This document shows, piece after piece, positions 1,252 to 15,825 of a stretch of DNA of 64,000 nt (positions within the stretch are counted from its first letter, which is position 1; the number at the start of each line of letters is the position of its first letter). Source of the DNA: Lachnospiraceae bacterium (lineage in GTDB: Bacteria; Bacillota; Clostridia; Lachnospirales; Lachnospiraceae); contig JAGAOO010000030.1 of assembly GCA_017623675.1 (NCBI GenBank), positions 1-64,000 of the forward strand, given 5' to 3'. The notes below the pieces were generated by a model. The model ran no database searches, was not told where the DNA came from, and saw nothing but the letters and a program-made list of their open reading frames with translations. The translations under genes and the position numbers were made by a program.

Positions 1252-1279
1252 TAAAAAGGAAGCCACTAACGACTTCCTT
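1252..1279 (-). terminator. Intrinsic terminator of the lipoprotein gene
   Basis: On the minus strand a hairpin with GGAAG/CTTCC arms (1258-1277) is followed by TTTTTAAT. It closes the lipoprotein gene 1306-2286. Confidence 0.75.
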
Positions 1280-1305
1280 AATGTATTTATGAATTTAATA
1301 TTTTA

Positions 1306-2286: not shown

Positions 2287-2304
2287 GATAATTCCTCCCT
2301 ATAG

Positions 2305-2321
2305 GTGTTCACCGTGAACAC
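2305..2321. promoter_or_regulatory. parS-like palindrome, copy 1
   Basis: GTGTTCACCGTGAACAC, the leftmost of eight copies of TGTTCACSGTGAACA. It overlaps the fic stop codon. It resembles the chromosomal parS consensus (TGTTNCACGTGAAACA) but has an odd length with a central S. A ParB and ParA pair is encoded in the same element. Confidence 0.65.
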
Positions 2322-2947
2322 TTTTTGGCATATTCTTTCCCTTTTTTCAGTTCTCCAGTCTTATAAACATCATACCCCTCGTATGAATAACTGGCATCAA
2401 TCCCTTTCATATAGACCTCGCGATCATTCACTCGTTCTGTTAATGCGTTTCGTAAAAGCAACTTGATTTCTGTATCTTTTACAGGACTCCGTTCCATTGC
2501 AAGAAGATAATCTTCTTTATTTACTTGAGACCAGTCAATCACATGATTGATTTCCTTTTTTAACATTAAATCTAACCAGATACGTGTACTTCTGCCATTA
2601 CCTTCCCGAAATGGATGTGCAACATTCATTTCAACATACTTTTCGATGATTTCATCAAAACTTGACTGTGGCATCTGTTCGATTTCTTGTAAAGCTGCAG
2701 ATAAATACATCACAGGCACGAACCGAAAACCGCCTTTGGCAATATTGACAGTCCGCACCTTCCCGGCAAAATCATATATATCATCAAACAGATATTTATG
2801 AATCTTGGAAAGAGTATCAAATGTACCTGCTTCAAAAGTATCCAATATTCCCTGTTCAAATAGTTCCAATGCTCTATTCTTACTAATCCTTTCCTCTTCT
2901 TTCATCAATTTGACGGATTCAGTAATTCCCAGCTTGTTTTTCAGCAT
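2309..2947 (-). CDS. Fic family protein (putative toxin AMP-transferase)
   Basis: A 212-residue Fic domain protein. The active-site motif HPFREGNGR is complete, so transfer of AMP or a related nucleotide part to a target protein is expected. I chose ATG 2947 (MLKNKL) because AGGAGG lies 7 bases upstream; an earlier ATG has no such site. Its start overlaps the stop of the DinJ-type gene (ATGCTGA), so the two are translationally coupled like a toxin-antitoxin pair. No Fic inhibitory motif ([S/T]xxxE[G/N]) is obvious at the N-terminus. The target is unknown. Confidence 0.85.
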   Translation of the reverse strand: MLKNKLGITESVKLMKEEERISKNRALELFEQGILDTFEAGTFDTLSKIHKYLFDDIYDFAGKVRTVNIAKGGFRFVPVMYLSAALQEIEQMPQSSFDEIIEKYVEMNVAHPFREGNGRSTRIWLDLMLKKEINHVIDWSQVNKEDYLLAMERSPVKDTEIKLLLRNALTERVNDREVYMKGIDASYSYEGYDVYKTGELKKGKEYAKKCSR

Positions 2948-3180
2948 GAACAGTCCTCCTTGCATATTTCACTCATTTTTTCTTTATACAGCATGAGTCT
3001 TTCCAGTTGCTGCTCTCTTCGCTCCTTGGACACATCAAATGGTATCGCCTGTTCCCTCACCATCTTCTTTGCGAACATGATAAATGCAGTTGTCAGATTA
3101 ATCCCTAAGTCCTCACAAAGAACTTCCATATCCTTCTTAAGTTTATCATCCATGCGGATACTGACTGTTGTTTGTGCCAT
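2941..3180 (-). CDS. RelB/DinJ family antitoxin
   Basis: About 79 residues with an N-terminal ribbon-helix-helix (TTVSIRMDDKLKKDMEVLCEDLGINLTTAF, split over two helices) typical of DinJ/RelB antitoxins that bind DNA and autorepress. ATG 3180 is preferred over 3186 because GGAGG (3188-3192) is then 7 bases away. The gene is followed by fic with overlapping start and stop, instead of the usual YafQ/RelE toxin. A perfect inverted repeat overlaps its promoter. Confidence 0.8.
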   Translation of the reverse strand: MAQTTVSIRMDDKLKKDMEVLCEDLGINLTTAFIMFAKKMVREQAIPFDVSKERREQQLERLMLYKEKMSEICKEDCSC

Positions 3181-3228
3181 ATCCATTCCTCCAATCTATA
3201 ATTATTCCTATTTATAAGATACTTCATT

Positions 3229-3258
3229 TTGAATACATTGTCAATACAACGTATTCAA
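3229..3258 (-). promoter_or_regulatory. Operator and promoter of the dinJ-fic operon
   Basis: A perfect 8-bp inverted repeat (TTGAATAC 3229-3236, GTATTCAA 3251-3258) covers the minus-strand -35 box TTGACA; 17 bases on is TATCTT. This is the layout expected for autoregulation by the RHH antitoxin. Confidence 0.55.
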
Positions 3259-3279
3259 AAATATCAAACAAGCTACTTT

Positions 3280-3789
3280 TCACAAGCACTTCATATTAAG
3301 TTTTCTTACATTTCCCATAAATGGACTCATTTCTCTTTGTTTTTGCAATGCTTCTTCTCTGGAGAACGAATAAAACTCTCTTGTGTTACTTCCAACTATG
3401 ATGTGGTCCACCATATGAATTCCTAATATATCACACCCTTTTTTAATCTGTTCCGTAATCCGAATATCGTTTTCCGACGGTTGGATGTTCCCTGACGGAT
3501 GATTATGCATAAGCATAATGTTTGGTGCGTTTGAAAGAATAGTCGACTTGAAAATATCTGCTGGATTTGCAAGCGATGTCTGAACCGCACCGACAGATGC
3601 AATACAAAAATTAATTGGTCGCATGTCTGCCTGTAGATTTAAAACAACAACACATTCCCTATCCATATCATTAAGCAATTCTTGTAACACAACTATGGCT
3701 TCCTCCGGAGTTTTAACATGCTTATCTGATGCAAGTTTACGTTCCTTGATTAGCCGAATAGAAACTTCCTGTAACCCCTTATTATTCAT
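3280..3789 (-). CDS. RadC-like JAB domain protein of mobile elements
   Basis: About 169 residues forming a single JAB/MPN metalloprotein domain. The metal motif HNHPSG(N)xxPSxxD is intact (HNHPSGNIQPSENDI). It lacks the N-terminal helix-hairpin-helix of full-length RadC, as is common for copies on plasmids and integrated elements. ATG 3789 follows a GAGGTG ribosome binding site. Its biological role is unknown. Confidence 0.85.
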   Translation of the reverse strand: MNNKGLQEVSIRLIKERKLASDKHVKTPEEAIVVLQELLNDMDRECVVVLNLQADMRPINFCIASVGAVQTSLANPADIFKSTILSNAPNIMLMHNHPSGNIQPSENDIRITEQIKKGCDILGIHMVDHIIVGSNTREFYSFSREEALQKQREMSPFMGNVRKLNMKCL

Positions 3790-3801
3790 TTTATACACCT
3801 C

Positions 3802-4155
3802 TTAGAAATTTACAGTCATAACAAATTCTTCATCCTGTGGTATTTGTTTAATTTCTTTGATAATTTCTTCAACAGAATTCTGTTCGCTGTGTACAGAATC
3901 TGCGTCCATATCAGCCATCAAAAAGTCCAGCAACTCTTTTTCTTCACTGGTTGCCTGTTCACCGTGAACAGCTTCCTCTTTTACCTCTGAATCATTATGA
4001 ATCAGCTCCTGGGTTAAATAATGCCGGTTATGATATTCTAATACCGCTGCTTTCACATATGCAGTTGCGTTACTAAAACCATCATGCCGGGATAGAATCT
4101 TTTCAATCTTTTTATCCTGCTCCGTAGTACCAATTCTCATAATGAAATTTTTCAT
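3802..4155 (-). CDS. Small ribbon-helix-helix-like protein with acidic tail
   Basis: About 117 residues. The N-terminal half (RIGTTEQDKKIEKILSR...FSNATAYVKAAVLEY) has the strand-helix-helix pattern of MetJ/Arc-type plasmid regulators, followed by a very acidic tail. The gene contains parS-like copy 2, read in frame as VHGEQ, and a degenerate copy read as VHSEQ (3881-3895). GAGGAGG lies upstream of ATG 4155; the spacing is long, so TTG 4167 remains possible. Function unknown. Confidence 0.55.
   Translation of the reverse strand: MKNFIMRIGTTEQDKKIEKILSRHDGFSNATAYVKAAVLEYHNRHYLTQELIHNDSEVKEEAVHGEQATSEEKELLDFLMADMDADSVHSEQNSVEEIIKEIKQIPQDEEFVMTVNF
3955..3971. promoter_or_regulatory. parS-like palindrome, copy 2 (inside a gene)
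   Basis: CTGTTCACCGTGAACAG, inside the coding sequence of the RHH-like gene. A degenerate version (TGTTCGCTGTGTACA) lies 60 bases away at 3881-3895. Confidence 0.6.
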
Positions 4156-4196
4156 ACTTCTAACCAACCTCCTCTAAATAAAAAAGAATATGCAGT

Positions 4197-4460
4197 CTAC
4201 ATTACCACACATTCACCAAATCCGGATAAATCCGTGTATCCACTCTCACATAGTTCATAACACTTCTGCCTGCAATCAAATTCTGTCACACCAGCAATAT
4301 AACAAAAAGCTCCACTCATATCTTCTAATAATATTCCCGATATTTTAGGTCTTTCCTTATCTCGCTCTGCTATTCCCAAGCCCAAAATGTTTTCATCATA
4401 GGATAAACTGATTATTTCCAACACCTTTATTTTTTTCTCTTCTGTTATCAATACCCTCAT
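4197..4460 (-). CDS. Hypothetical protein, 87 residues
   Basis: The small ORF starts MRVLITEEKK at 4460 with an AAAGGAATG ribosome binding site. It has three cysteines near the C-terminus (CRQKCYELC). A longer in-frame extension would run through a terminator hairpin, so the short form is chosen. I do not recognise the family. Confidence 0.5.
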   Translation of the reverse strand: MRVLITEEKKIKVLEIISLSYDENILGLGIAERDKERPKISGILLEDMSGAFCYIAGVTEFDCRQKCYELCESGYTDLSGFGECVVM

Positions 4461-4482
4461 TTTCTCATTCCTTTCACACAAT

Positions 4483-4518
4483 AAAAAAAAGAACAAAACG
4501 ACTGGTTTTGTTCTTTCT
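4483..4518 (-). terminator. Intrinsic terminator upstream of 4197-4460
   Basis: On the minus strand AGAACAAAAC pairs with GTTTTGTTCT and is followed by TTTTTTTT. It lies 23 bases before the gene start, so it may act as an attenuator for that gene. Confidence 0.55.
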
Positions 4519-4678
4519 CTTACATTTATATACACTTGTAGCAGTTTAATAATAACATATCTTCGTAGTATCTTCAAGTATCACCTTGCATTTTTATCGA
4601 CTTTTTTCAGTCCTGACATTTCGCATCGCCTTAATAATAAATGATAAATTATTTGAAATATCATTGAAACTGTGCTAC

Positions 4679-4768
4679 TATAATCATACAAGGTGGTACT
4701 AGGTTGCACCCCTTGGTGTTAACCGCAAAAATAATCCGCGACTTTACCAGAGGGGCGGATTATTTTTT
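4679..4768 (+). ncRNA. Candidate antitoxin RNA convergent with the holin-like toxin
   Basis: A plus-strand TATAAT (4679-4684, weak -35) precedes about 78 bases that end in a strong hairpin (AATAATCCGC...GCGGATTATT, 4730-4764) with a T-run on both strands. The toxin mRNA comes from the other side and its stop codon lies in the terminator stem, so the two 3' ends overlap. This is the layout of TxpA/RatA-type type I systems. Evidence is arrangement only. Confidence 0.5.
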
Positions 4769-4858
4769 GTTCTTCTTATCCGAACTTATCTTATAGACAA
4801 GACCTATGAGTGCCACTAAAAACAATCCAATCTGGATCAAGTTCTCATATGTAACCAT
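4760..4858 (-). CDS. Holin-like type I toxin, 32 residues
   Basis: The peptide MVTYENLIQIGLFLVALIGL plus a basic tail (DKKNKK) matches the short holin-like toxin family (M-TYE-x-L, one membrane helix, Lys-rich end). Start 4858 has GGGGG 8 bases upstream; ATG 4864 is also possible. A minus-strand promoter has TATAAT (4904-4909) with TTTTCA 17 bases before. Such peptides depolarise membranes and are silenced by an antisense RNA; the candidate RNA converges on it from the left. Confidence 0.65.
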   Translation of the reverse strand: MVTYENLIQIGLFLVALIGLVYKISSDKKNKK

Positions 4859-4951
4859 AGGCATCTCCCCCTTTCTCAAGGGGTCAACCGTTCCCACAGA
4901 TACATTATAGCAAAAGCTTCGCTCTATGAAAACAGAAAAACAAAACATTAG

Positions 4952-4976
4952 TAGGGTGTTCACGGTGAACACCCTA
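4952..4976. promoter_or_regulatory. parS-like palindrome, copy 3 (25-bp perfect palindrome)
   Basis: The core TGTTCACGGTGAACA (4957-4971) is extended by TAGGG/CCCTA arms into a 25-bp palindrome. It sits just upstream of the holin-like toxin promoter and downstream of the dam stop codon. Confidence 0.65.
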
Positions 4977-4994
4977 GATAACATTACCCTCTGT

Positions 4995-5777
4995 TCATTT
5001 AGCTGCCCTTAGTTCATAATTGCCCCATACAAATTCTCTTCGCTGGATGCCTCGTTCTGCTCTTGTAATTCTACTTTCCCAGTTCCAATTTTTCAACATT
5101 TGCTTATACAAATCACATTCATAGCCGGATATTAAAATTCGGCCAGGATGATTTACAATAACCTCTAATAATTCAACATGATCTTGATATGTAGCCTCAT
5201 GTACATATTGATACTTCTTACGAATTTCCGGTACATATGGTGGGTCTAAATATATAAAAACATCTTCTGTATTATACATTTCCAAAAGCTGTATTGCCGG
5301 GCGACATTCAATCTGTGCATTTTGCAGTCTTTGAGTCACGTATGGAATTACTGATATAAAGTCATTCCATTGTTTAGTAGTTGTTGGCGAACTGCTCTGT
5401 TGTGATGTACGGAATCCATTCTGGTATCGGTTACTGCAACCAAATCCCATCCAGCATCTTATAGCAAATTTTCTTGCTTTTTCTATTTCATCGTCCTTTT
5501 GAAAATTAATAAATGCATATTCATATTCTTTCCTTGCATAAGGAGTCAGTTTTAGCTGTTCCATAAATTTGTCGGGCTGTTCTCGAATTACACGAAAGAA
5601 GTTTACCACACTTTCATCCAAATCGTTTATAGTTTCAATCCTCGCCTGTGGTTTATTAAAAAACACTGCTCCGCTTCCAAAATACGGTTCAAGATATACT
5701 TCATGCTCTGGAATAAGAGAACATATCCATTCTGATAAACGGTTCTTTGCACCCGGATATTTTAAAACAGGTTTCAT
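4995..5777 (-). CDS. Orphan Dam-type DNA adenine N6-methyltransferase (D12 class)
   Basis: A 260-residue D12-class methyltransferase. The AdoMet-binding motif is YPGAKNRL with PYFGSGAVFF, and the catalytic motif IV is DPPY. No restriction enzyme is nearby, so it is an orphan, as usual on plasmids and phages, where it may protect the element or mark replication and partition. GAGGTG precedes ATG 5777/5780. The target sequence cannot be told from this alone, though GATC is usual for the class. Confidence 0.85.
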   Translation of the reverse strand: MKPVLKYPGAKNRLSEWICSLIPEHEVYLEPYFGSGAVFFNKPQARIETINDLDESVVNFFRVIREQPDKFMEQLKLTPYARKEYEYAFINFQKDDEIEKARKFAIRCWMGFGCSNRYQNGFRTSQQSSSPTTTKQWNDFISVIPYVTQRLQNAQIECRPAIQLLEMYNTEDVFIYLDPPYVPEIRKKYQYVHEATYQDHVELLEVIVNHPGRILISGYECDLYKQMLKNWNWESRITRAERGIQRREFVWGNYELRAAK

Positions 5778-5815
5778 CATTACTCACCTCAATATTGTCA
5801 TATAAAGAAAAAATG

Positions 5816-5843
5816 TTATAGAGGCGGTTGTCCGCCTCTATAG
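5816..5843 (-). terminator. Terminator of the parAB operon
   Basis: A perfect TATAGAGGCGG/CCGCCTCTATA hairpin directly follows the parB stop. On the minus strand it is followed by a T-rich stretch. Confidence 0.75.
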
Positions 5844-5845
5844 TT

Positions 5846-7261
5846 TTACCCAATCGCATCTACTTCATCTTCCAGCATAGCAATTAAACTCTTAATAATC
5901 TTTTTAGCGTCCTCTGCATTGCTCCACTGGATGGAATCTGCATTGCTTAATTCCTCTTCCAATTTGTAAATACGTTTTTCCAGGTCACTTTTTGATACTA
6001 CACCGGATGCTTCCTCTGATGTTTCAGTTTGTTTAGTCTTATCCAACTGAACTTGTTCAGAAAGTATATCAAGGAACATTGTCCAGGTAATCTCATCATA
6101 ATTGCTAATCACAATTCCTGTTTTGTTATGGCATATTATTTTAATTCCTCGCGGAGAGCAATCAAAACCTATCACCCCTGGACCACCAAAATAACTATAT
6201 GCCTTTCCATATTTTTCAATCAGATATTTCTTTAGCTTATAATAGTTTTTAATTTCACAGCCTATATGTTCATATACACGTAACACTTCATCAGAGGAAG
6301 GAATCTTAGATTGTTCACCGTGAACACTTTCTGCATCCTCAATTTGTTCATCCTCTTCTTCCTCTCCATAACACATATGCTCTCCATTCTCCGGGTGGCA
6401 TTCCCAGATACCTTCCTCTGGATTGTTATTTAACATACAATCCTCACATTCTTCCTGAACCGGTAATCTATCATATGCAGTCTTCATTTCATTATTGGTA
6501 TAATCTTCTATACTTAACTGACCGTCCAAAGGCTTTTTACTTAGTATTGAATTCATAAAGTCTTTCAATGCACGTTTTGTAACTGCTTCTCGTTCTTTTT
6601 CAGCAGCTTCACAAATCATTGTTGCCAATTGTTCCTGTTCTTCTTTTGAAAGCGTCTTTGCTGTATAAAGAAAAGACCAAGGTGCTTTCCGTTCCGCAAC
6701 TATTCTCTGCAGTTCCGGTTCCAGCTTCAAAAGGGATTCATATTTATATACCTGACTGGCAGATATCCGAAAATCAACCGCAATCTGTTCTCTGGTATCA
6801 CCCTTGAATCCTTCCTTTTCCAATGTTTCACGGTGATAATGAATCTGTCTGGCTACCAGTATTGGATTATCACTTTGAACCTTATTTCTGCCATACAGAT
6901 TTGCACCGAGCAACTGTCTTCTCTTAACTGTTTCTTCCGGCTCCGGTTCAATCAAGCATGGAATAGTATCTAAGCCAGCTTCTATTGCTGCATATTTCCG
7001 GATATGTCCGGAATACACTTCATAAGTACCATCCGGACAGGAATATACATTAATGGCACCCTTAAAACCATTTGCCTTTATTCCTAACGCGGTATGTTCA
7101 ATATCTGACTGTTCCATTCCAAATAAATACGCATTATCCGGATTATCCTTTAGTTCCTTAGTCGGAAGCTGTTTTACCACAGCTCCAGCCTTCATTAATG
7201 CACTTTTGCTTGCTACGCTTTGAAGTGTTTTATTGCCTTTTGCTTTACTAAAATCTGCCAT
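5846..7261 (-). CDS. parB: ParB-like partition protein
   Basis: A 471-residue ParB/Spo0J-family protein: an N-terminal ParB/sulfiredoxin-like CTPase fold (about 35-125, with YSGHIRKYAA where chromosomal ParB has GERRxRA), a helix-turn-helix (REQIAVDFRISASQVYKYE, about 165-185), and a long C-terminal extension with a Cys cluster (CEDCMLN...CYGEEEE) and a coiled coil at the end. ATG 7261 is chosen because AAAGGAG is then 6-7 bases away. It follows parA by 12 bases. The gene contains parS-like copy 4, so ParB may bind its own gene. Confidence 0.85.
   Translation of the reverse strand: MADFSKAKGNKTLQSVASKSALMKAGAVVKQLPTKELKDNPDNAYLFGMEQSDIEHTALGIKANGFKGAINVYSCPDGTYEVYSGHIRKYAAIEAGLDTIPCLIEPEPEETVKRRQLLGANLYGRNKVQSDNPILVARQIHYHRETLEKEGFKGDTREQIAVDFRISASQVYKYESLLKLEPELQRIVAERKAPWSFLYTAKTLSKEEQEQLATMICEAAEKEREAVTKRALKDFMNSILSKKPLDGQLSIEDYTNNEMKTAYDRLPVQEECEDCMLNNNPEEGIWECHPENGEHMCYGEEEEDEQIEDAESVHGEQSKIPSSDEVLRVYEHIGCEIKNYYKLKKYLIEKYGKAYSYFGGPGVIGFDCSPRGIKIICHNKTGIVISNYDEITWTMFLDILSEQVQLDKTKQTETSEEASGVVSKSDLEKRIYKLEEELSNADSIQWSNAEDAKKIIKSLIAMLEDEVDAIG
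6312..6326. promoter_or_regulatory. parS-like palindrome, copy 4 (inside parB)
   Basis: TGTTCACCGTGAACA within parB, read in frame as VHGEQ. Sites inside par genes are common for real parS sequences. Confidence 0.65.
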
Positions 7262-7273
7262 ATCCATTCTCCT

Positions 7274-8050
7274 TTACATTCTGTTTAACATTTCATCTAC
7301 AAGTGACTCATAATCATTTGCAACTGCTGATTTTGGCTTATAATAACAAAGTGGTCTGCCAAACAAGCGTGTCTGCTTTGCGTAAGTATGTCGCCGGATC
7401 GTCTGACTAAAGAAATAATCGCCACAGGTTTCTGCTGACTGCATTTTGATATATCTGTCAAAACTTTCCCGGTCTGTATAGATGGTAAGGAATACACCTA
7501 AGATATCCAAAGTAGGATTAATTCCCTCTGCCTGCAGAACAGAAACCGTATCAATTAATTCTCCATAGCCATCCAGTGAATCAGCATCCACCGTTGCAGG
7601 AACCAACACATAATCACTGGCTGCCAATATGTTCACCGTGAACTCCGACATATATGGTGGGCAGTCATAAATCACATAGTCATATTCCTTACGAACAGAG
7701 GCAATTGCTTCCTTTAATACATAATCGCTTGCCGGAGTAATCGTTGCCATAGTTCGATTCGTTGGAAGTATGTCAATGCCTATATCCTTTGGGTTGGCGT
7801 TACCTCTGGTACGGATTGGTGCAGTTACTATCACTTCGTTAATATCTGCTGTCTGATTCATCACTTCCACGATACTCTGCGTAGGTTCTTCATCCAACTC
7901 CATCAATAATGCTTTTGTCAGATTCGCCTGAGGGTCACAATCTACTACCAATAGCCTGTTACCTCTCTTGGCTAAACTCCCGGCAATATTGATTACACTC
8001 GTTGTCTTTGCACATCCACCTTTTTGATTGAACAATGCTATTTTCTTCAT
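7274..8050 (-). CDS. parA: ParA partition ATPase
   Basis: A 258-residue Walker-type ATPase: the deviant Walker A KGGCAKTT at residues 10-17, DCDPQANLT (Walker A'), and YDCPP (Walker B). It lacks an N-terminal HTH, so it is the short (type Ib-like) ParA, which normally needs a separate DNA-binding regulator; the divergent RHH gene at 8286 fits. Its promoter (TATAAT just downstream of operator copy 1) lies in the repeat-bearing region. The gene contains a one-mismatch parS-like site at 7630-7644. Confidence 0.92.
   Translation of the reverse strand: MKKIALFNQKGGCAKTTSVINIAGSLAKRGNRLLVVDCDPQANLTKALLMELDEEPTQSIVEVMNQTADINEVIVTAPIRTRGNANPKDIGIDILPTNRTMATITPASDYVLKEAIASVRKEYDYVIYDCPPYMSEFTVNILAASDYVLVPATVDADSLDGYGELIDTVSVLQAEGINPTLDILGVFLTIYTDRESFDRYIKMQSAETCGDYFFSQTIRRHTYAKQTRLFGRPLCYYKPKSAVANDYESLVDEMLNRM
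7630..7644. promoter_or_regulatory. parS-like palindrome, copy 5 (one mismatch, inside parA)
   Basis: TGTTCACCGTGAACT, which differs from the consensus in the last base. Confidence 0.5.
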
Positions 8051-8101
8051 ATTTATACTCCTTTCATAAGTACCTTTATTATTTTGTTATCTTTATTATA
8101 T

Positions 8102-8246
8102 ACTATGCCCCCATAGTTTTCTATTGACATACTATATAACTATGCCCCCATAGTTTTATTTATTTTGCTATGCCCCCATAGTTTTTATTGTTATTATGCA
8201 CAACTATGCCCCCATAGATTTGTTCATTTTACTATGTGGACATAGT
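8102..8246. promoter_or_regulatory. Five operator repeats between parA and the RHH gene
   Basis: Four copies of CTATGCCCCCATAG and one variant (CTATGTGGACATAG) start at 8102, 8139, about 8166, 8203 and 8231. Spacing alternates 37, 27, 37 and 28 bases. Each is a short dyad (CTATG...CATAG). They lie between divergent parA and a ribbon-helix-helix gene, and copy 1 sits right against the parA -10 box. This fits a centromere and operator array bound by the RHH protein; a replication iteron role is an alternative. Confidence 0.7.
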
Positions 8247-8285
8247 TCAATTTTATGTTATGATAATCATGAATAATCATGAAAG

Positions 8286-8525
8286 GTGGTGGGTGTCACG
8301 AAAAAAACTTCCGAACGACAACTGGCTTATGCAAAAGCATACCTTGATAAACTGGAATCCATTAAGGTTCGAGTTCCTGAAGGGCATCGGGATATTTACA
8401 AACAATTTGCAGCTTCCCAAAATTCCAGCTTAAATGCATTAATCATCAAGTTACTGAATCAGGATATGGTTGCACATGGTTTCGAACCTCCGGCTTCGGG
8501 TGTTCCCCTATCGAAGAAAGACTGA
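8286..8525 (+). CDS. Ribbon-helix-helix DNA-binding protein (partition regulator)
   Basis: About 79 residues with a basic N-terminus and an RHH core (KVRVPEGHRDIYKQFAAS..., NALIIKLLNQD). It reads away from parA across the five-repeat array. The start is a GTG (8286 or 8289) next to AAAGGTGG; the exact start is uncertain. Small RHH proteins of this kind bind repeats next to parA and act as partner, centromere binder or repressor. The Pro/Ser-rich C-terminus is unusual. Confidence 0.75.
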   Translation: MVGVTKKTSERQLAYAKAYLDKLESIKVRVPEGHRDIYKQFAASQNSSLNALIIKLLNQDMVAHGFEPPASGVPLSKKD

Positions 8526-8581
8526 ATTTCGTGCGGAGCATAATTTTTCTTTATCCAGACAGTCTTTCTTCTCCCCCCCCC

Positions 8582-9070
8582 TGTTATTTACCTAGGCATC
8601 TGCTTGTCCACTTTTATGTACTAGAAAAAGGCAATATCGCCATATGGCTATTGCTAGATATCTAGGTAAATAACAAGAGGTATAGGCTTCATATGTAAAA
8701 CGGTCAAGGTCCGCGTCTAAAACACCGCCAGGAATCACCTGTCGCCTACTGCCCCCTCTTTGAGTTTCCTGCAGACCACCACATCTGCAGCCTTATCAAA
8801 GCCGCGGAACAGTCACATCCAAAGTGTTCACGGTGAACACTTTATCTTCTTTAGATTTTGTTTCTGGTATCTCACCACCGCAGATTCGTAACTACGGACT
8901 ATCGTGCGGTTATTTAAACTTATCCCGTCGCTCTCTGACAGGGTTCTATCGTAGCTTGTTGGTGATGAAATCCAAGTCCACCACGATACCGTTGTTTTAA
9001 GGTGATTGCCGGCTCAACACCCCTATATCTTCCTCTCCGGGTTTAAGCCTGCTTATTTTATTGTTTTTCG
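8582..9070. other. GC-rich structured region without a gene: candidate large ncRNA or origin
   Basis: About 490 bases without a convincing ORF, clearly more GC-rich than its surroundings. A perfect 14-bp inverted repeat (TGTTATTTACCTAG 8582-8595, its complement 8662-8675) encloses an inner stem (GCAATA...TATTGC). Further pairs are TCCGCG/CGCGGA, CTGCAGA/TCTGCAG and CCGCA/TGCGG. parS-like copy 6 lies inside. It may be an ornate noncoding RNA, as seen on phages and plasmids, or a replication or transfer origin. Strand and ends are not determined. Confidence 0.45.
8821..8843. promoter_or_regulatory. parS-like palindrome, copy 6 (23-bp perfect palindrome)
   Basis: The core TGTTCACGGTGAACA (8825-8839) has AAAG/CTTT arms. 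It lies in the structured noncoding region, close to parA. Confidence 0.65.
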
Positions 9071-9114
9071 TGTATATTTCATTTTTTGATGCACTCTCCT
9101 ATTTCATGTAATAT

Positions 9115-9714
9115 TTAAACCAATAAATCCTTTAACTTTTGCGGAACTGGTTCTAAAACTGTATGATATATCACAACAGATTTATCCAACCGTGTCGGAG
9201 TATCTAATTCAACAACATATCGTTCTTTAAGCTTAGAGATTGAAGCTACGTTATTTGTCCAAGCAGTTCCGTGCCAGCCAATACCACTTTCATCCTTCCA
9301 ATAAGAATGAAACACAAAGTTCATTTTATCAAATGACAACTTCATAGATAGTGCACAGACAGGCTTGTCTTGTGTCAATGTTACATGAATAGGAAAAACA
9401 ATAGTTATGTAATCATCCTTTAATCCAATCTTAATTGTTAGAAGAATATCCTGCTGGGTATTCAGTTCTACAAAATATGGATATCCCAGTTTGCTGAGTT
9501 TACGTCCAACCTTCTTCGATATAGTTACATATCCATGATTTGGATATCTGTGATTTAACTTAATATCTGTCAACTGTTCTTCGCCAACTTGAAAGTCAAA
9601 ATACAAATCTTCCTGATTCGCATATGGGAAATAACAGCTAAGGTCAAACACGATACACCCTTTCCCTTTTGACACTTCGTCTTTTAATTCTAATTCAACA
9701 ATTTCACCATGCAT
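9115..9714 (-). CDS. Hypothetical protein, 199 residues
   Basis: A soluble, beta-rich protein without a signal peptide or obvious catalytic motif. It is the last gene of a compact group transcribed leftward (9984-10187, 9733-9987, then this one, 18 bases apart). I do not recognise the family. Confidence 0.6.
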   Translation of the reverse strand: MHGEIVELELKDEVSKGKGCIVFDLSCYFPYANQEDLYFDFQVGEEQLTDIKLNHRYPNHGYVTISKKVGRKLSKLGYPYFVELNTQQDILLTIKIGLKDDYITIVFPIHVTLTQDKPVCALSMKLSFDKMNFVFHSYWKDESGIGWHGTAWTNNVASISKLKERYVVELDTPTRLDKSVVIYHTVLEPVPQKLKDLLV

Positions 9715-9732
9715 AAACCATTCATCCCTTTC

Positions 9733-9987
9733 CTAAATTTCAAACAGTTTTCCAAACATTTTTTCTAATTTCTCATATTCCATCTCAAGAACAGAATACT
9801 TTTTCAGATATGATAAATTCGTAAAATCAAGTTTTTTTTGCTTATCTAAAATCATATTCATTTCCTTAATATAATGCTCTTGTGCTGCCCCCTTAATTTT
9901 CTCCATAAAAACTTCATCATTAATATCTAGAATAATATTGACTAATACCTTTTTAGGTAATACATTCAGAAATTCAAAATCTGTCAT
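9733..9987 (-). CDS. Hypothetical helical protein, 84 residues
   Basis: Almost entirely alpha-helical and charged. Its ATG overlaps the stop of the upstream membrane gene (TTATGA), showing translational coupling. No family recognised. Confidence 0.6.
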   Translation of the reverse strand: MTDFEFLNVLPKKVLVNIILDINDEVFMEKIKGAAQEHYIKEMNMILDKQKKLDFTNLSYLKKYSVLEMEYEKLEKMFGKLFEI

Positions 9988-10187
9988 AATTTCTCTCCAC
10001 CGTTACCTTTCTCCTCTTTTTTTGATTCACCTTCGCTTAGTCTCTTATCCTTTTCTTCATCTGAAACAAAAATATGATACAATCCATACGCTAATATGCT
10101 TACCCAAGCAATCATGTAGCAAATCAAAAAACAATAACCAGTATAGTATTCAATTGGATATTTCATAAATTCACTTAATGTTTCCAT
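9984..10187 (-). CDS. Small single-pass membrane protein
   Basis: 67 residues starting METLSEFMKYPIEYYTGY with AAGGAGA upstream. It has one hydrophobic helix (about 17-40) and a highly charged Lys/Glu-rich C-terminal tail. It is the first gene of the 9115-10187 group. Function unknown. Confidence 0.6.
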   Translation of the reverse strand: METLSEFMKYPIEYYTGYCFLICYMIAWVSILAYGLYHIFVSDEEKDKRLSEGESKKEEKGNGGEKL

Positions 10188-10218
10188 TTTCTCATTCTCC
10201 TTATTTTCATCTTCCTTT

Positions 10219-10650
10219 TTAATGTTTCTTTGTTTCAGACAGGCTTTCAGGTTCATCCCATAGCTCATAACTGTACTCATCTGAACTGTCTAAGCAGGCA
10301 ATATACAGCTCCGCTTCTTCCACCGTATCAAAAAACGTATTAAGAGTTTCCCAGTCTCCGGCTTCCGGGTCAATGCAATGCTGCAGCACAATCTTTTTGC
10401 CTTTTATAATTTCTTCATAATATTCTTCCGTAATCGGTGAACCATGCCAAAAATGTTTGGCGGTATACCCATCCACAAACAGTCTCGGTTTTGCTCCATG
10501 ATATGGAGTGGAACCGCTATATTTAATTCCGTTTACTTCAAAACGTACAAACCACAATCCACATACTTCCGGCTTTTCAATTAATTCTTTCTGGAATCCA
10601 TAATCTCTTGATATGATTTCCTGCAATTCTTCCTTTGAATAACGTTTCAT
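10219..10650 (-). CDS. Hypothetical protein, 143 residues
   Basis: Starts MKRYSKEEL at 10650 after a strong GGAGG. It is acidic, soluble and rich in Tyr, Trp and Glu. No known motif. It probably belongs with the downstream 9115-10187 group, 31 bases away. Confidence 0.6.
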   Translation of the reverse strand: MKRYSKEELQEIISRDYGFQKELIEKPEVCGLWFVRFEVNGIKYSGSTPYHGAKPRLFVDGYTAKHFWHGSPITEEYYEEIIKGKKIVLQHCIDPEAGDWETLNTFFDTVEEAELYIACLDSSDEYSYELWDEPESLSETKKH

Positions 10651-10775
10651 TGTCTTTCCTCCTTTTTTCCGGGAAGGACCGTAGCCCTTCCCTTTATCAT
10701 CCCCTTTATTACAGCCAGAATAAGAATGCGTGTGAGACATTACATAATCCATTCCGGCAGTGCAATCATTTTGGC

Positions 10776-10975
10776 TTGCATTACACATTTTTGTGTGATA
10801 TGATGCAAGTATGGCAGAATTTTATATCTTACATGGCATAAGTCATGGTGGCTGATAAACCAAAAACCGGAAAACCGGTATTGGCGTGGCACACTGGGAT
10901 GTATGATTCGGGCGGGGTGTTTGGTCGACACTTTTTTTGAAAGAAGAGAACTTTGCAAAGTTTTCTTCTTTTTTT
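10776..10975 (+). ncRNA. Candidate plus-strand small RNA with its own promoter and terminator
   Basis: A good promoter (TTGCAT 10776-10781, exactly 17 bases, TATGAT 10799-10804) is followed by about 165 bases without a gene. They contain a CCAA-ACCGG/CCGGT-TTGG hairpin and end in a strong palindromic terminator (AGAAGAGAACTTTGCAAAG..., 10943-10966) with TTTTTTT. It is antisense to nothing obvious and converges on the gene at 10974-11618, whose 3' end it touches. Confidence 0.5.
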
Positions 10976-11618
10976 ATTTCCGCCTGTCATACTCCCAATA
11001 TTCCTTTCGATTAATTAAGTTCATTTCTTCTTTTGTCAGAAATTGCTCTGGAACAGCCACCACTTCATCCAAAGTCATTCCCTTTTCATTGATTCTATTC
11101 TCAAATGTTCTCTGAATATCCGCATGAAATCCGGATATAGCATATAATATTGCAATAAGCCTTAATTCCTTCCGTTCTAACGCTTTGATGTTGTTCCGGT
11201 GTATATGGAACATGGATACAATCACATCATATTTCATCCCATCGCACAGCTTGGCACTCACAATCTGATAGCCTCTAGGATTTATCAATTTTGAAATTGC
11301 AAAGCATAAATCAATCCGATTAATGTAGTATCGCATTTCAAACAAAGGCTGTAACTGTTCAATTGCCTCTGTTAACTGATTCGTTTCGTTCATGTATACT
11401 TCATCCACGACACGTTGCAAATCATGCACTTCATTTGTAAAGCACGGTATCTGATCGTACTGAACCGCCTTGGCAGATACAGCTTTGATTTGGGAAGTAT
11501 GCGTTTCTATACCGGAAAACACTTGCAGAATAGTAGAATCTAAATGTTGTCGATATGGCGTTGACAACACTTCTACGATGTCTGAAATTTTAATTTTCTT
11601 ATGTACTCTCTGCATCAT
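10974..11618 (-). CDS. Hypothetical protein, 214 residues
   Basis: A helical soluble protein; GAAAGGAACC precedes a double ATG. The middle part (about 130-160: LCDGMKYDVIVSMFHIHRNNIKALERKELRL) may be helix-turn-helix-like, but I cannot name a family. It follows the 11628-11801 gene by 9 bases, so the two are likely cotranscribed. Confidence 0.6.
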   Translation of the reverse strand: MMQRVHKKIKISDIVEVLSTPYRQHLDSTILQVFSGIETHTSQIKAVSAKAVQYDQIPCFTNEVHDLQRVVDEVYMNETNQLTEAIEQLQPLFEMRYYINRIDLCFAISKLINPRGYQIVSAKLCDGMKYDVIVSMFHIHRNNIKALERKELRLIAILYAISGFHADIQRTFENRINEKGMTLDEVVAVPEQFLTKEEMNLINRKEYWEYDRRK

Positions 11619-11627
11619 GGTTCCTTT

Positions 11628-11801
11628 CTAATCATAATCTATTCCCAGTTGTCTCATTGCTACCTTGGTAGCCAGGTAATCTACCGTGTCCTGTATTCGC
11701 TTTCTACGGGCTGCAAGTTCCTCCGGTGTAGCATCCCGATACGCATCGTCATGAATCCGAATAATCGTATTGCCCGATTGAATTGTTTTAACAACCGCCA
11801 T
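11628..11801 (-). CDS. Small hypothetical protein of mobile elements, 57 residues
   Basis: Starts MAVVKTIQSGNTIIRIHDD; ATG 11801 is preferred because AAGGAG is then well spaced. The second half is a basic helix (EELAARRKRIQDTV). Short proteins of this pattern are frequent near recombinases in Firmicutes elements. Function unknown. Confidence 0.6.
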   Translation of the reverse strand: MAVVKTIQSGNTIIRIHDDAYRDATPEELAARRKRIQDTVDYLATKVAMRQLGIDYD

Positions 11802-11889
11802 TCGAATCATCTCCTTTTTTCTTCATGTTTCAATCTTATTCCTCTTAGTTTTACACTATGTTATGAATTGTACTTATAGTTCATTTTCT

Positions 11890-12069
11890 TTATAAAATTT
11901 CATCTAACGACACTTTCAAAGCCTTTGCTATAGCCTGAGCAGTTTTTAGTGATGGCGTTTTCTGCCCATTTTCAATAAATCGAATATATCTCTCAGAAAC
12001 ACCGCTACTTCTTGATAATTCTAATATTGAAATTCCTTTTCTAATTCTTACATCTTTTAGTTTCTCCAT
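11890..12069 (-). CDS. XRE-family helix-turn-helix protein, 59 residues
   Basis: A complete small repressor-like protein: MEKLKDVRIRKGISILELSR, then SSGVSERYIRFIENGQKTPS, ending LKVSLDEIL. The Cro/C1-type HTH is complete. AAGGAGG lies 6 bases before ATG 12069. It diverges from a second XRE gene (12177), the layout of a phage-like genetic switch. Confidence 0.8.
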   Translation of the reverse strand: MEKLKDVRIRKGISILELSRSSGVSERYIRFIENGQKTPSLKTAQAIAKALKVSLDEIL

Positions 12070-12093
12070 GGTTAACCTCCTTAATATACTTTT

Positions 12094-12137
12094 AGTTCTT
12101 ATGTACTAATAGTACAGTACCTATTCTTCTATGTCAA
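12094..12137 (-). promoter_or_regulatory. Divergent promoter and operator between two XRE genes
   Basis: Minus-strand TTGACA (12132-12137), 17 bases, TACTAT (12109-12114). The imperfect dyad AATAGTAC-A-GTACCTATT covers the -10 region and is a likely repressor site. A plus-strand TATAAT-like box (GTTATAATTT, about 12148-12157) serves the other gene. Confidence 0.6.
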
Positions 12138-12176
12138 CTACTTTTTTGTTATAATTTTTTAAGGAGTGTGAGAATA

Positions 12177-12545
12177 ATGCAAATCGGAAACAGAATCAAA
12201 TCATTAAGAATGCAATCAAATATGACACAAAAAGACTTGGCATTAAAAATTGGTTTAACACCAAAAATGATATCTTTTTATGAAAATTCAGAACGTATTC
12301 CGCCTATGGATATAGTTATTAAATTTGTAGAAATTTTTAATGTATCTTCAGATTATCTTTTAGGCTTAACCTCTGCTCCTGATGCAAAAGAAATAATACA
12401 TGGTGAAGTACTTACAAAGGACGAAAAAAAATTAATAGAAACCTACCGTTCTTTAGATTCTGATGAAAAATTGGCTATTCTTGGAAAAGCAATAGATTTC
12501 AAGCTAAATTCTGCTTCTCCAAACAAGAAAAAAGACATTGGATAG
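12177..12545 (+). CDS. XRE-family transcriptional repressor
   Basis: About 122 residues: an N-terminal HTH (IGNRIKSLRMQSNMTQKDLA...YENSERIPP) and a C-terminal helical part (TKDEKKLIETYRSLDSDEKL) typical of element immunity repressors without a peptidase domain. AAGGAG at 12161-12166; ATG 12177 is taken rather than GTG 12168. Its last codons (KKDIG) form the start of a 48-bp direct repeat. Confidence 0.85.
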   Translation: MQIGNRIKSLRMQSNMTQKDLALKIGLTPKMISFYENSERIPPMDIVIKFVEIFNVSSDYLLGLTSAPDAKEIIHGEVLTKDEKKLIETYRSLDSDEKLAILGKAIDFKLNSASPNKKKDIG

Positions 12546-12582
12546 AAAGAGATAATATTATTAATGTGGACTGGGAATGAAC
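12535..12582 (+). repeat. 48-bp direct repeat, left copy
   Basis: Begins inside the end of the XRE gene (ACATTGGATAG...) and runs to ...GGGAATGAAC. A perfect copy lies at 13354-13401. The 771 bases between hold one membrane protein gene and parS-like copy 7. Confidence 0.85.
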
Positions 12583-12643
12583 TATTGATATTTAATTCTT
12601 ACATCCATTATAATATTATAAATTTCTTAAGGGGGCGAAAGCT

Positions 12644-13339
12644 ATGAATTTAAGTGAAATGAATCGAGAGCAGCTCATGCAATTTTTATCTATAGCTCAA
12701 CCTGATATGTACGAACTCGAAAAACTTAACAGTGAATTAAATCAAGAGAGAAAAAATTGTATTATGCGGAATGCACACGTCTCATCGATGCCAAAGCATA
12801 TTACTGTTGGAAGGGTTGTGGGTGCTATCTTTGCCAGTTTCGGCATAGCAATTCTTTTTTATATTGTGGCTACTTATATTAAGTTGAAAGCATTTGCCTT
12901 AGGCTTTGACACTACGGAATATATTAAAGCCCTTGCAATGAATAGTTCATCTCCATTCAAATTATTGCCATCCTTATCTGATATTTTTGCATCAAGCTTT
13001 TGGTTTCTGATACCCTTTTTAGTCTCTTTAACTATTATAATCGTCATTACCAATATGTTAGTAATAAAAAAGAGAAAAAGAGCTTTGCTAAACTTCGAAA
13101 AAGAAAAAGAGATTTTTAAAGAGGTAAATGATTATTATAAAAACAAGATGTCTGCCATACATTCTAATCACCCAGAATGGAGAATGATTCCAGAAGCATA
13201 TCAGAGTGCCGAAGTATTATATGGTATTTATAATTACTTAAGAGATATGCGGGCAAACAATTGGAAAGAAGCCGCTAACTTATATGAGTTTGAACATCCA
13301 GGGCGAACATTACCTAATTATAAATTTCAGATTTATTAA
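12644..13339 (+). CDS. Membrane protein with two helices, unknown function
   Basis: 231 residues: a helical N-terminal part (1-50), two transmembrane segments (about 57-80 and 118-140), then a basic, helical cytoplasmic part ending in YKFQIY. GGGGGCG lies upstream of ATG. It sits between two perfect 48-bp direct repeats, as a cassette inserted behind the repressor. No family recognised. Confidence 0.65.
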   Translation: MNLSEMNREQLMQFLSIAQPDMYELEKLNSELNQERKNCIMRNAHVSSMPKHITVGRVVGAIFASFGIAILFYIVATYIKLKAFALGFDTTEYIKALAMNSSSPFKLLPSLSDIFASSFWFLIPFLVSLTIIIVITNMLVIKKRKRALLNFEKEKEIFKEVNDYYKNKMSAIHSNHPEWRMIPEAYQSAEVLYGIYNYLRDMRANNWKEAANLYEFEHPGRTLPNYKFQIY

Positions 13340-13341
13340 AG

Positions 13342-13356
13342 TGTTCACCGTGAACA
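13342..13356. promoter_or_regulatory. parS-like palindrome, copy 7
   Basis: TGTTCACCGTGAACA, overlapping the first bases of the right 48-bp direct repeat. Confidence 0.65.
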
Positions 13357-13401
13357 TTGGATAGAAAGAGATAATATTATTAATGTGGACTGGGAATGAA
13401 C
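13354..13401 (+). repeat. 48-bp direct repeat, right copy
   Basis: Identical to 12535-12582. The left copy is the natural end of the XRE gene, so this copy is likely the duplicate made when the membrane-gene cassette arrived. Confidence 0.85.
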
Positions 13402-13447
13402 ATGAAATTTAAATAAGTCAGCCGGGGTTTTATGTCATTTTGGCATA

Positions 13448-13556
13448 TTGCGTTACAATTTTGCATATGTTATAATGGCGTTAGCTAAGAAAAGAAATAA
13501 GTGCCAGAATGGACACAAAACGAAACCCCACGAGTTCGCACCTCGTGGGGTTTCTT
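13448..13556 (+). ncRNA. Candidate antitoxin RNA of an Fst/par-like type I locus
   Basis: Promoter TTGCGT (13448-13453), 17 bases, TATAAT (13471-13476). The RNA (from about 13483) contains AAGAAAAGAAATAAGTGCCA near its 5' end and stops at a GAAACCCCACGAG/CTCGTGGGGTTTC terminator (13522-13554) that also works on the other strand. Its 5' part is nearly the exact complement of the toxin initiation region at 13660-13690, i.e. a direct repeat as in the pAD1 par system. Confidence 0.65.
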
Positions 13557-13596
13557 CTCTCTTTGGACGGTTGAGCATCCGTTAGGCTAATTGTCG

Positions 13597-13683
13597 CTAT
13601 TCGTCACCGTCTAGCCATTTGCAAATATAGTAGCCAACCATACTTGCCATAACGGAAACCAAGAAAGAAATAAGTACAGCCAA
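13597..13683 (-). CDS. Fst-like type I toxin peptide, 28 residues
   Basis: Reads LAVLISFLVSVMASMVGYYI then CKWLDGDE: one membrane helix followed by a short charged tail with WLD, like Fst-family toxins. No ATG is present; TTG 13683 lies 7 bases after a GGGGGGG ribosome binding site (ATT 13686 is an alternative). The mRNA converges on the bidirectional terminator at 13522-13554. Too short for routine annotation. Confidence 0.6.
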   Translation of the reverse strand: MAVLISFLVSVMASMVGYYICKWLDGDE

Positions 13684-13774
13684 AATGAACCCCCCCCTTT
13701 CTGTTGCCAGAATGGGTGCGACAACACAGGAATTATACTCTATATCTATTGCATAAATCAAGAAAGGGAAACAC

Positions 13775-15313
13775 ATGAACCACTACTGTATGTATCTAAG
13801 AAAATCAAGACGCGACATAGAAGCAGAAACCTATGGCTCCGGAGAAACATTTTCCAGCCATGAAAAGCAGCTCACAGAGCTTGCGAACCGTCTTGGAATT
13901 CGTGTTGATAAAATATATAAAGAGATAGTATCCGGCGACACAATTGCTGCCAGACCGCAGATGCAGCAGTTGCTTCAGGATATTGAAAATGGCATGTGGC
14001 AGGGTGTACTTGTAACAGAAGTAGAGCGACTTGCACGTGGTGCCACAATCGATCAGGGTATAATCAGCCAGGTATTTTCTCTCTCCCATTGCAAAATAAT
14101 AACATTATCAAAAACTTATGACCCGGATAATGAGTTCGATGAGGAGTTTTTTGAGTACGGTTTATTTCAATCCAGACGGGAGTATAAGGCAATCAACCGC
14201 AGACAGCAGCGTGGTATCCAACAGTCAGTCAGAGATGGCAAATGGGTTTATAACAAAGTACCTTTCGGCTATCGGAGAATTAAACTGGAAAACCAGAAGG
14301 GCTATACTTTGGAAGTCGTTCCGGAAGAAGCGGAACTTGTGAAATTCATATATGATACCTATGAACAGAAAAAAGCCGGATATACTGTCATTGCAGAAAA
14401 ACTTACCGAAATGGGCGTACCGGCACGGTATAACGACCACTGGAGTTTGTCAACTGTAAAAGACATTCTTACCAACCCTGTCTACATCGGTCAGGTACGC
14501 CGGGGATACAAAAAGACCGAAAAGCGGACGCAAAACGGAGAATTAATCTCTTCCCGTCCAAGACGCTCCTATGGCGATTATGATGTTTTTCCCGGACTGC
14601 ACCAGGCGATCATTTCAGAGGAACAATTTTTGCGGGTGCAGGAAATGTTTGCAAGTCATCCATCCCATCCGGTAGGCAAGAAATTAGAAATCAAATTTCC
14701 GGCCGCCGGACTGGTATACTGCAAACTCTGTGGTTCAAAAATGGTTCGCAGACCCCATGCTAAAGCTGCCACTTTGATTATGTGTCGAAACAAACAATGT
14801 CCTAATATTGCCGGTGATGAGGAAGCAATCGTTAATAAAATTCTCGAATCCCTGCGTGACTATCTGGAGGAACTCAAGGCAAATAATATAACCGTCGAGC
14901 AGACTACCAAAACATCTTCTCTGGAAAAGTCACTTGAGAAACTCAAAGCAGAGCAGGAAAAACTTACCCAGCAGCTTGACCGGGCATATGATCTTGTCGA
15001 GCAAGGAGTTTATACCATTGAACTTTTTCAGGAACGCAGTGAAAAGATCAAGGCGGACATCCTTTCTGTAAACGATAAGATATCTGCACTGCAGGCAGAA
15101 ATAGATAAAGAAAATAAATTAGTAGAATTACGGGAATCCTATATCCCCCGTTTGGAAAACGTTCTCGATATATGGGATACGGTTTCTCCTGCAGAGCAAA
15201 ATAAACTGTTATATGATGTAGTAGACCGAATTGAGTATCTGAAAACGGAGCGTTCTAAACGAGGACCTAAGGATAATTTTGAACTGGATATCAGCCCTCG
15301 GATTCCATTGTAA
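13775..15313 (+). CDS. Large serine recombinase (integrase of the element)
   Basis: 512 residues: an N-terminal resolvase domain with catalytic Ser in MYLRKSRRD (Ser11) and the LARG-type helix (ERLARGATIDQG), a recombinase domain (about 160-290), a zinc ribbon (CKLCGSKM...CRNKQC, about 318-345) and a long C-terminal coiled coil (about 385-460). These enzymes integrate and excise elements between short att sites. It is the last gene of the element and ends 32 bases before the disrupted manganese catalase gene, the expected place for an att junction. Confidence 0.93.
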   Translation: MNHYCMYLRKSRRDIEAETYGSGETFSSHEKQLTELANRLGIRVDKIYKEIVSGDTIAARPQMQQLLQDIENGMWQGVLVTEVERLARGATIDQGIISQVFSLSHCKIITLSKTYDPDNEFDEEFFEYGLFQSRREYKAINRRQQRGIQQSVRDGKWVYNKVPFGYRRIKLENQKGYTLEVVPEEAELVKFIYDTYEQKKAGYTVIAEKLTEMGVPARYNDHWSLSTVKDILTNPVYIGQVRRGYKKTEKRTQNGELISSRPRRSYGDYDVFPGLHQAIISEEQFLRVQEMFASHPSHPVGKKLEIKFPAAGLVYCKLCGSKMVRRPHAKAATLIMCRNKQCPNIAGDEEAIVNKILESLRDYLEELKANNITVEQTTKTSSLEKSLEKLKAEQEKLTQQLDRAYDLVEQGVYTIELFQERSEKIKADILSVNDKISALQAEIDKENKLVELRESYIPRLENVLDIWDTVSPAEQNKLLYDVVDRIEYLKTERSKRGPKDNFELDISPRIPL

Positions 15314-15335
15314 GGTGTTCACGGTGAACACCTTA
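15311..15335. promoter_or_regulatory. parS-like palindrome, copy 8 (25-bp perfect palindrome)
   Basis: The core TGTTCACGGTGAACA (15316-15330) has TAAGG/CCTTA arms. It overlaps the recombinase stop codon and is the last copy before host sequence begins. Confidence 0.65.
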
Positions 15336-15344
15336 CAACTGTTT

Positions 15345-15825
15345 TTATAGATACCTTCTTGGCACAGAGGAACTTGGACACGGCGAAATGATTTGTGCGA
15401 TTGTTCATCAGTTGACCCGTAATTTATCTATGGATGAAATTGAAAAATCCGGTTTTGATAAATATTACACCGACCACACCTTAGGTATCTGGCCACAGGC
15501 TGCCGGTGGTGTACCCTTCAATGCATGTGAATTCGCAGTAAAGGGCGACCCAATAACAGACTTGCATGAAGATATGGCGGCAGAACAAAAGGCAAGGACC
15601 ACTTACGACAACCTGCTTCGGCTTTCCAAGGATCACCCTGATGTTTATGCAGTCTTGAAATTCCTCCGTGCAAGAGAAGTCGTGCACTTCCAACGGTTTG
15701 GCGAAAGTCTTCGTATGGTACAGGATGACTTAGACGCAAAGAATTTCTATGCATTTAACCCGGATTTTGACACTTCGGCACCTTGCGTAGATAAGAAAAA
15801 TGATTGCGACTGTAAAGGAAAATAG
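15345..15825 (+). pseudogene. 3' part of a manganese catalase / CotJC-type gene, truncated by element integration
   Basis: In frame from about 15345: LLGTEELGHGEMICAIVHQL, and on to FQRFGESLRM...FYAFNPDFD. This is the C-terminal two thirds of a Mn-catalase (ferritin-like, metal ligands in TEELGH and VHFQ). The N-terminal helices are missing because the sequence before about 15345 belongs to the mobile element. No ribosome binding site precedes the first ATG (15388). The other half should lie at the far end of the element. A Cys-rich tail (CVDKKNDCDCKGK) follows. Confidence 0.8.

Follow-up and report, generated by a model that had tools for sequence, protein, structure and literature searches.

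The window analysed here, the first 64,000 nucleotides (C36:1-64000) of contig JAGAOO010000030.1 from a Lachnospiraceae bacterium (assembly GCA_017623675.1; 2.81 Mb, 84 contigs, 93.8% complete), begins inside an integrated element of ~42.1 kb which carries adjacent parA and parB genes, as in ParABS systems, and a scattered array of odd-length palindromes. The right part of the element occupies window 1..15363 and the left part C4:22330-49061; the last 14 bases of contig C4 are the first 14 bases of C36, and this overlap falls within an apparent single surface-protein frame. Both element ends carry ACAGAGGAA (window 15364..15372 and C4:22330-22338), and the right junction lies inside a manganese catalase gene (PF05067; cotJC-like) which the element splits: profile positions 29-67 end at C4:22341 and positions 62-196 begin at C36:15358, while the outer parts read ...VLTDIAT and ...GTEELGHGEM, consistent with one frame. 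The gene order in the window is Fic, RadC, D12-class adenine DNA methyltransferase (4995..5780, minus strand, next to parB), ParB (5846..7267, minus strand, 473 aa, the presumed site binder), ParA (7274..8050, minus strand, 258 aa, a Walker ATPase), and the element's own large serine recombinase (13775..15313, plus strand), with an HTH_3 regulator at 12168-12545. Pfam names VirD4, a MobA/VirD2-type relaxase, an ArdC-type protein, and VirB4 among the element proteins; TopB-, CHAP-, PrgI-, and TrbL-like proteins were named by eye. The first-pass annotation had spoken of an integrated plasmid-like element, and integrated it is, but relaxase, VirD4, VirB4, large serine recombinase, and defined ends together make it an integrative conjugative element rather than merely a plasmid-like one.

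The palindrome word of this element, and the predicted target of its ParB, is TGTTCACSGTGAACA, a 15-mer with 7-1-7 symmetry. All eight positions first reported for it are correct, seven of them exact and the one at 7630 with one mismatch, and the claim that no copies follow 15335 stands for matches with up to 2 mismatches, although there is one 3-mismatch match at 17767. The extent, however, had been put too low at 13 kb and eight sites. Across the whole assembly there are 16 exact and 3 one-mismatch places, all of them on C4:25086-47424 (11 copies, 9 exact and 2 with one mismatch) and C36:2306-15330 (the 8 copies in the window), so that the array continues leftward on C4 and its 19 sites run from ~2.8 kb inside the left end of the ~42-kb element to just inside the right end. 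Confinement to an integrated element with ParA and ParB, as first proposed, thus holds for 19 of 19 assembly copies: allowing up to one mismatch, no copies lie outside the element, and the equal density elsewhere in the genome that would have spoken against the proposal is not seen. At up to 3 mismatches the window has 11 matches, whereas 100 dinucleotide shuffles average 1.34 and never exceed 5, and the reversed control pattern gives 0 matches across the whole assembly. A chance origin of the array is ruled out by the shuffle counts and by the assembly-wide confinement.

The eight window sites lie in a variety of contexts. Site 1 (2306..2320, TGTTCACCGTGAACA) overlaps the Fic gene at its end and precedes a Big_2-domain gene; site 2 (3956..3970, exact) lies within a 121-aa open reading frame (ORF) and encodes AVHGEQ; site 3 (4957..4971, exact) is just downstream of the D12 methyltransferase gene; site 4 (6312..6326, exact) is in the linker region of parB; site 5 (7630..7644, one mismatch) is within parA and encodes EFTVN; site 6 (8825..8839, exact) is in a conserved non-coding region upstream of parA; site 7 (13342..13356, exact) is directly downstream of a 231-aa ORF; and site 8 (15316..15330, exact), between the recombinase stop codon and the right element end, is the centre of a 31-bp perfect odd palindrome. 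Location inside genes is therefore borne out for parB and parA, as are the longer arms noted at three sites, where perfect symmetry extends beyond the 15-mer by 5, 4, and 8 bp on each side (4957, 8825, and 15316, respectively). Over the whole element, 10 of the 19 sites are not fully within an ORF and 9 are inside ORFs, 2 of which may precede the true start codon; the extra arm is at most 1 bp in 8 of the 9 ORF-internal copies, and several intergenic copies have longer arms flanked by A/T runs. A ~46-bp direct repeat (window 12537-12582 and 13356-13401) flanks the 231-aa ORF and its palindrome, and looks as if gene plus site had been inserted together; the G106 homolog of this ORF (see below) is located elsewhere and inverted, with a site beside it.

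Exact copies of the 15-mer are present in 3 of the 8 genomes of the genus: the window genome G000 (16 copies), G106 (8 copies, all on contig C18), and G398 (1 copy, on a 4.6-kb contig with a VirD4 fragment). Among 397 genomes of the family the exact 15-mer occurs only in G000, G106, and G337, and we take the single G337 copy to be chance, as its 3-kb locus has no second copy. G106 contig C18 holds a diverged element in the same catalase position, with identities to the window element of 50% (MAFFT) or 43% (blastp) for ParB, 60% for ParA, 75% for D12, and 59% for the recombinase. It has ten sites (8 exact, 1 with one mismatch, 1 with two), and nine of them, paired by eye from scripted gene contexts, are at homologous places, among them site 1 and those at the VirD4 C-terminus, in the parB linker, and upstream of parA; one of the nine adjoins a moved, inverted gene. 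Identity over the nine pairs is 92% for the 15-mer versus 56% for the 60-bp flanks, where shuffled flanks give ~53%. (The G106 element also has a second short relaxase-like ORF, L030:5932-6489, between parA and the recombinase.) A third element interrupts the same gene in G401, with identities to the window element of 40% for ParB, 59% for ParA, 78% for D12, and 56% for the recombinase. Five places in the G401 genome match TGTTCATSATGAACA with at most one mismatch; they are limited to the two contigs holding pieces of the element and are at homologous places (judged by eye from gene order and flanks, unscripted): three are exact, one has an A centre, and one is changed in one arm only, so that 4 of the 5 are altered in both arms to TGTTCATNATGAACA with symmetry kept. 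At the parB linker site the encoded peptide is SVHGEQ in the window element, VVHGEQ in G106, and VVHDEQ in G401; here the protein follows the DNA word (VHGEQ to VHDEQ), so selection acts on the DNA. A repeated cis palindrome that differs along with ParB, as expected of a ParABS system, is thus found in these elements, with the caveat that two G106 sites show the other form in full or by half (the CAT form, CATCATG, at 9582 and a mixed form at 4653).

These comparisons bear on whether the palindromes might instead be terminators, RNA hairpins, or mobile palindromes like REP sequences or MITEs. Such a reading would suit the several intergenic copies whose longer arms have A and T runs on either side, but it does not account for the short arms of the ORF-internal copies, for a 15-mer that keeps homologous places while its flanks diverge, or for G401 sites that are symmetric after a base change, and an Rfam scan of window 1-16000 gave nothing at the gathering threshold; we regard it as very improbable. 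As judged by sequence comparison, the array is real and under selection, and in our judgement the palindromes are protein-binding DNA sites, most likely those of ParB.

We scanned 45 ParB-homolog loci, window element and G106 included, for clustered imperfect palindromes with 7- or 8-bp arms and a gap of 0-3, comparing each with 6 or 8 shuffles per setting (length-matched first-order Markov sequences) and calling a locus positive at an excess of at least 3 over the best shuffle; 25 of the 45 were hand-picked from hit lists, and many may be ordinary chromosomal ParB. Twelve loci were positive (6/13, 5/25, and 1/7 in three sets), with palindromes that include GTCTCATTGTGAGAC (G528), TGCTCATTATGAGCA (G598), TGGACATAATGTCCA (G604), and ACTTAACCGTTAAGT (G353); G143, G452, and G629 reach only the threshold, and chance may account for the A/T-rich palindrome of G629 (excess 3, 7-3-7). 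Odd symmetry is common to all twelve (with gaps of 1 or 3) and to the KorB operators on R751, so that the odd length remarked on in the first-pass annotation recurs in every array called. The 24 control stretches all stay below an excess of 2; most are 20 kb long, less than some of the test loci. With R751 as yardstick, the 7-1-7 setting recovers the KorB operators (9 clustered versus a shuffle maximum of 3); settings with 6-bp arms, which were run on the first 13-locus set and R751 only and are excluded from the 12 of 45, miss the R751 operator, the larger clusters there being other palindromes, and give G206 an excess of 3 at gap 2 and again at gap 3.

Strongest among the relatives is the 60.6-kb Oscillibacter valericigenes conjugative plasmid pOBV01, whose ParB is ~29% identical over 47% of the query. 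It has 27 sites, 26 of which match NNCTCACSGTGAGNN exactly and 24 TMCTCACSGTGAGKA; 20 are not fully inside a coding sequence (CDS), and 6 of the 7 that are inside lie in genes longer than 1.7 kb. The arrays of L121, G028 (L076), G078, G598, G604, and G452 have differing cores and similar outer arms (ACTT...AAGT), which may mark a subgroup in which the outer contact is conserved and the core varies. No close ParB relative was confirmed in genome_contigs, and the longer form of the palindrome has no match in genome_contigs or viral_contigs (these scans may omit the window's own genome); phage records gave one weak ParB match.

Each of the 12 arrays, and that of G078, occurs together with a ParB-group protein, and ParA is found with all except L121 (where ParA was not looked for), but only G078 was chosen neither through ParB nor as the window element. 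G078 comes from 20 loci around VirB4 relatives in the family (ranks 3-22 of the listed places, 28-40 kb fetched for each, so that ParAB of a locus could fall outside the fetched stretch). Seventeen of the 20 have no detectable ParA or ParB in these stretches and none of the 17 reaches an excess of 4: one is at 3 (G012C5, with an even palindrome), two are at 2, and the second conjugative element of G106 (C7) is at 1. The single locus with ParB alone has a local group of four (excess 2), and of the two loci with both ParA and ParB, G078 has 10 copies of TTGGACCATTGGTCCAA, an excess of 8. The VirB4-anchored loci, a small sample, therefore support the link of array to ParB.

Mean spacing of the sites is 2.21 kb in the window element, 2.24 kb in pOBV01, and 3.2 kb in G106, and the variation of the gaps is below that of random placement in all three (P 0.011, <5e-5, and 0.0008, respectively), also under nulls that respect coding and non-coding placement (P 0.002 for the window element, ORF-aware; <5e-5 for pOBV01, gene-aware). 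The window and G106 elements are sisters and not independent of each other; pOBV01 is independent. R751 KorB operators are not regularly spaced (P 0.34), and even spacing as a general rule is ruled out by four irregular elements. The spacing is relevant to a second alternative, namely that an ordinary ParABS centromere has been multiplied by drift or duplication and dispersed without function. Many chromosomes carry several parS, 4 of the 27 pOBV01 sites lie within a longer repeated block, and the four irregular arrays would fit; homologous places kept in diverged elements, arms that change together in G401, and spacing that is even in three elements, with gene layout allowed for in two, would not, and we hold this alternative to be improbable. 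The sequences themselves thus establish confinement, conservation against a diverged background, a change in both arms, odd symmetry, and, in these three elements, even spacing.

The ParB profile matches Noc, ParB, KorB (8qa8, E 2e-10), and Spo0J structures. The protein has an N-terminal domain just below the Pfam cut-off, a helix-turn-helix region, the variable site-bearing linker, and an extra C-terminal region; its alignment has G-H-x-R and N-x-x-x-R stretches, which we take to be nucleotide-binding motifs. No KorB domain model is listed for three group ParBs scanned (Pfam E<=0.05, NCBIfam E<=0.001). Chromosomal Spo0J/ParB-parS and Noc systems are similar in the protein, and the half-site of the window palindrome resembles the parS consensus, but the known parS and Noc sites have an even length and parS occurs in few copies close to the origin, whereas the palindromes here have an odd length and occur throughout a mobile element and only there. 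KorB, with its operator OB on the IncP plasmids RK2 and R751, is likewise a member of the ParB family encoded next to a ParA-type ATPase by a conjugative element, and the window element shares with our R751 yardstick a scatter of many nearly identical odd palindromes centred on C or G. In the 50 of 53.4 kb of R751 examined we find 9 exact and 2 one-mismatch copies of TTTAGCSGCTAAA, which we take to be the letters of the KorB operator consensus. The differences are that i) the sequences differ, with arms of 7-1-7 in the window element and 6-1-6 in R751; ii) the window element is integrative and its ParB is without a KorB domain match; and iii) the window sites are denser and more even, one per 2.2 kb versus an irregular ~one per 4.6 kb. 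A KorB study gives OB as a 16-bp sequence and reports that KorB slides along DNA as a CTP-dependent clamp and can reach promoters as far as 1.5 kb off (PMC11790492). A further parallel, by its published description only, is BisD, a ParB-type CTP-dependent protein that belongs to integrative conjugative elements of Pseudomonas putida and is reported to regulate gene expression (PMC12704722). In relaxase, VirD4, VirB4, and ArdC-type genes, and in TopB/PrgI/TrbL-like genes named by eye, the window element resembles conjugative elements of the class we would label Tn1549-like, but detectable ParA and ParB are absent from 17 of the 20 stretches fetched around VirB4 relatives.

Could the palindromes then be KorB-like operators, from which ParB would repress or adjust the element's genes for transfer and maintenance, perhaps over some distance, with coverage of the element a by-product? 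The ParB profile matches KorB as well as the other structures, R751 operators share the odd symmetry and S centre, the KorB clamp is reported to reach distant promoters, and 10 of 19 window-element and 20 of 27 pOBV01 sites are not fully inside an ORF or CDS. On the other hand, 9 of 19 and 7 of 27 sites are inside ORFs (the true start codon may lie downstream of two of the nine), the even spacing of three elements is not what promoter operators predict and is not seen for those of R751, and the KorB models are missing from the three group ParBs; we think this reading possible but unlikely, and promoter regulation may in any case coexist with coverage.

We consider it probable, from the sequence comparisons above, that the palindromes, which extend over the whole element, serve its own ParB as loading sites of the parS or KorB-operator type. 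There is about one site in every 2.2 kb; ParB dimers would load at each, presumably forming CTP-gated clamps that slide, and sites ~2 kb apart could then give ParB coverage of the entire element despite transcription and other roadblocks, a step taken by analogy with the reach of the KorB clamp. ParA would hold, position, or partition the covered element when it is excised or newly transferred, and the covered element may also be condensed or transcriptionally quietened; ParB binding, its clamp nature, and the purpose of the covered state are what we infer here. A stronger version, which we advance tentatively and at somewhat less than even odds, is that some conjugative elements of Clostridia have a distributed centromere, an evenly spaced lattice of ParB-loading sites over their entire length, with sites put inside long genes too wherever gaps free of genes are lacking, so that ParB would coat the whole element without a break and the coated body would serve partition, condensation, self-marking, or silencing.

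Several observations weigh against ParB loading as the explanation: i) 33 of the 45 ParB-homolog loci have no such array; ii) VirB4 locus G083 bears both ParA and ParB but has no array (excess 2); iii) most positive loci were found via ParB, so that the link rests on parallel divergence and the small VirB4-anchored test; iv) the arrays in G528, G078, G598, and L121 are not regular (P 0.21-0.80); v) both palindrome forms occur in G106, so the position is tolerant and the G401 change need not be strict co-evolution with ParB but could be drift at a tolerant position; vi) a single-sequence structure prediction for ParB was unusable (mean pLDDT 39.6); vii) the D12 methyltransferase beside parB is better conserved than ParB in the sister elements; and viii) a 78-codon ORF with a five-copy dyad array upstream of parA could belong to ParA's true partner. 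The last two points raise the alternative that another protein (the HTH_3 regulator, the product of the 78-codon ORF at 8289-8525, or the D12 methyltransferase) binds the palindromes and ParB is a bystander. D12 identity is the highest of the genes compared with both sister elements, and further small DNA-binding candidates exist; yet D12 was undetected by tblastn in pOBV01, G528, G598, and G452 (the last three fetched in part), the 78-codon ORF has dyads of its own at 8103-8245, which were not found upstream of parA in G106 or G401 (the protein was not searched there), and a ParB-group protein is present with every array, though chosen independently only in G078. We judge another binder to be quite unlikely.

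Partition sites are usually seen as local and KorB operators as promoter-linked, whereas the window array is element-wide, evenly spaced, and diverges along with ParB; in our judgement it is a variant of the ParB/KorB theme, and a new one, and among the literature matches listed none describes arrays of this kind in Clostridial elements in its title or opening abstract. The array is a natural test of the range of ParB spreading on transcribed DNA, and of why an integrated element keeps a partition system; the sister elements with their one-base arm shift, together with the palindrome series across ParB relatives, form a set for mapping ParB specificity.

Two other features lie upstream of parA. 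The dyad CTATGCCCCCATAG, with 4 exact copies and 1 two-mismatch copy at window 8103-8245, is located between parA and the divergent 78-codon ORF (ribbon-helix-helix-like by eye), and is a candidate local operator or second centromere. Beyond it, a non-coding stretch (window 8690-9010, L030:5060-5360, and L180:3860-4160) is conserved among the three sister elements with 75% mean column identity, carries the palindrome (degenerate in G401), and could be an origin, a transfer origin, or a structured RNA. Finally, two different serine-recombinase elements (~7.3 kb and ~42 kb) interrupt the manganese catalase gene of the window genome at two positions, leaving pieces at window 15358-15825, C4:14799-14909, and C4:22228-22341; the G401 gene is likewise interrupted at two positions, and a single-match catalase is found only in G399 among the 8 genomes of the genus. 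These interruptions resemble sporulation-gene intervening elements such as skin.

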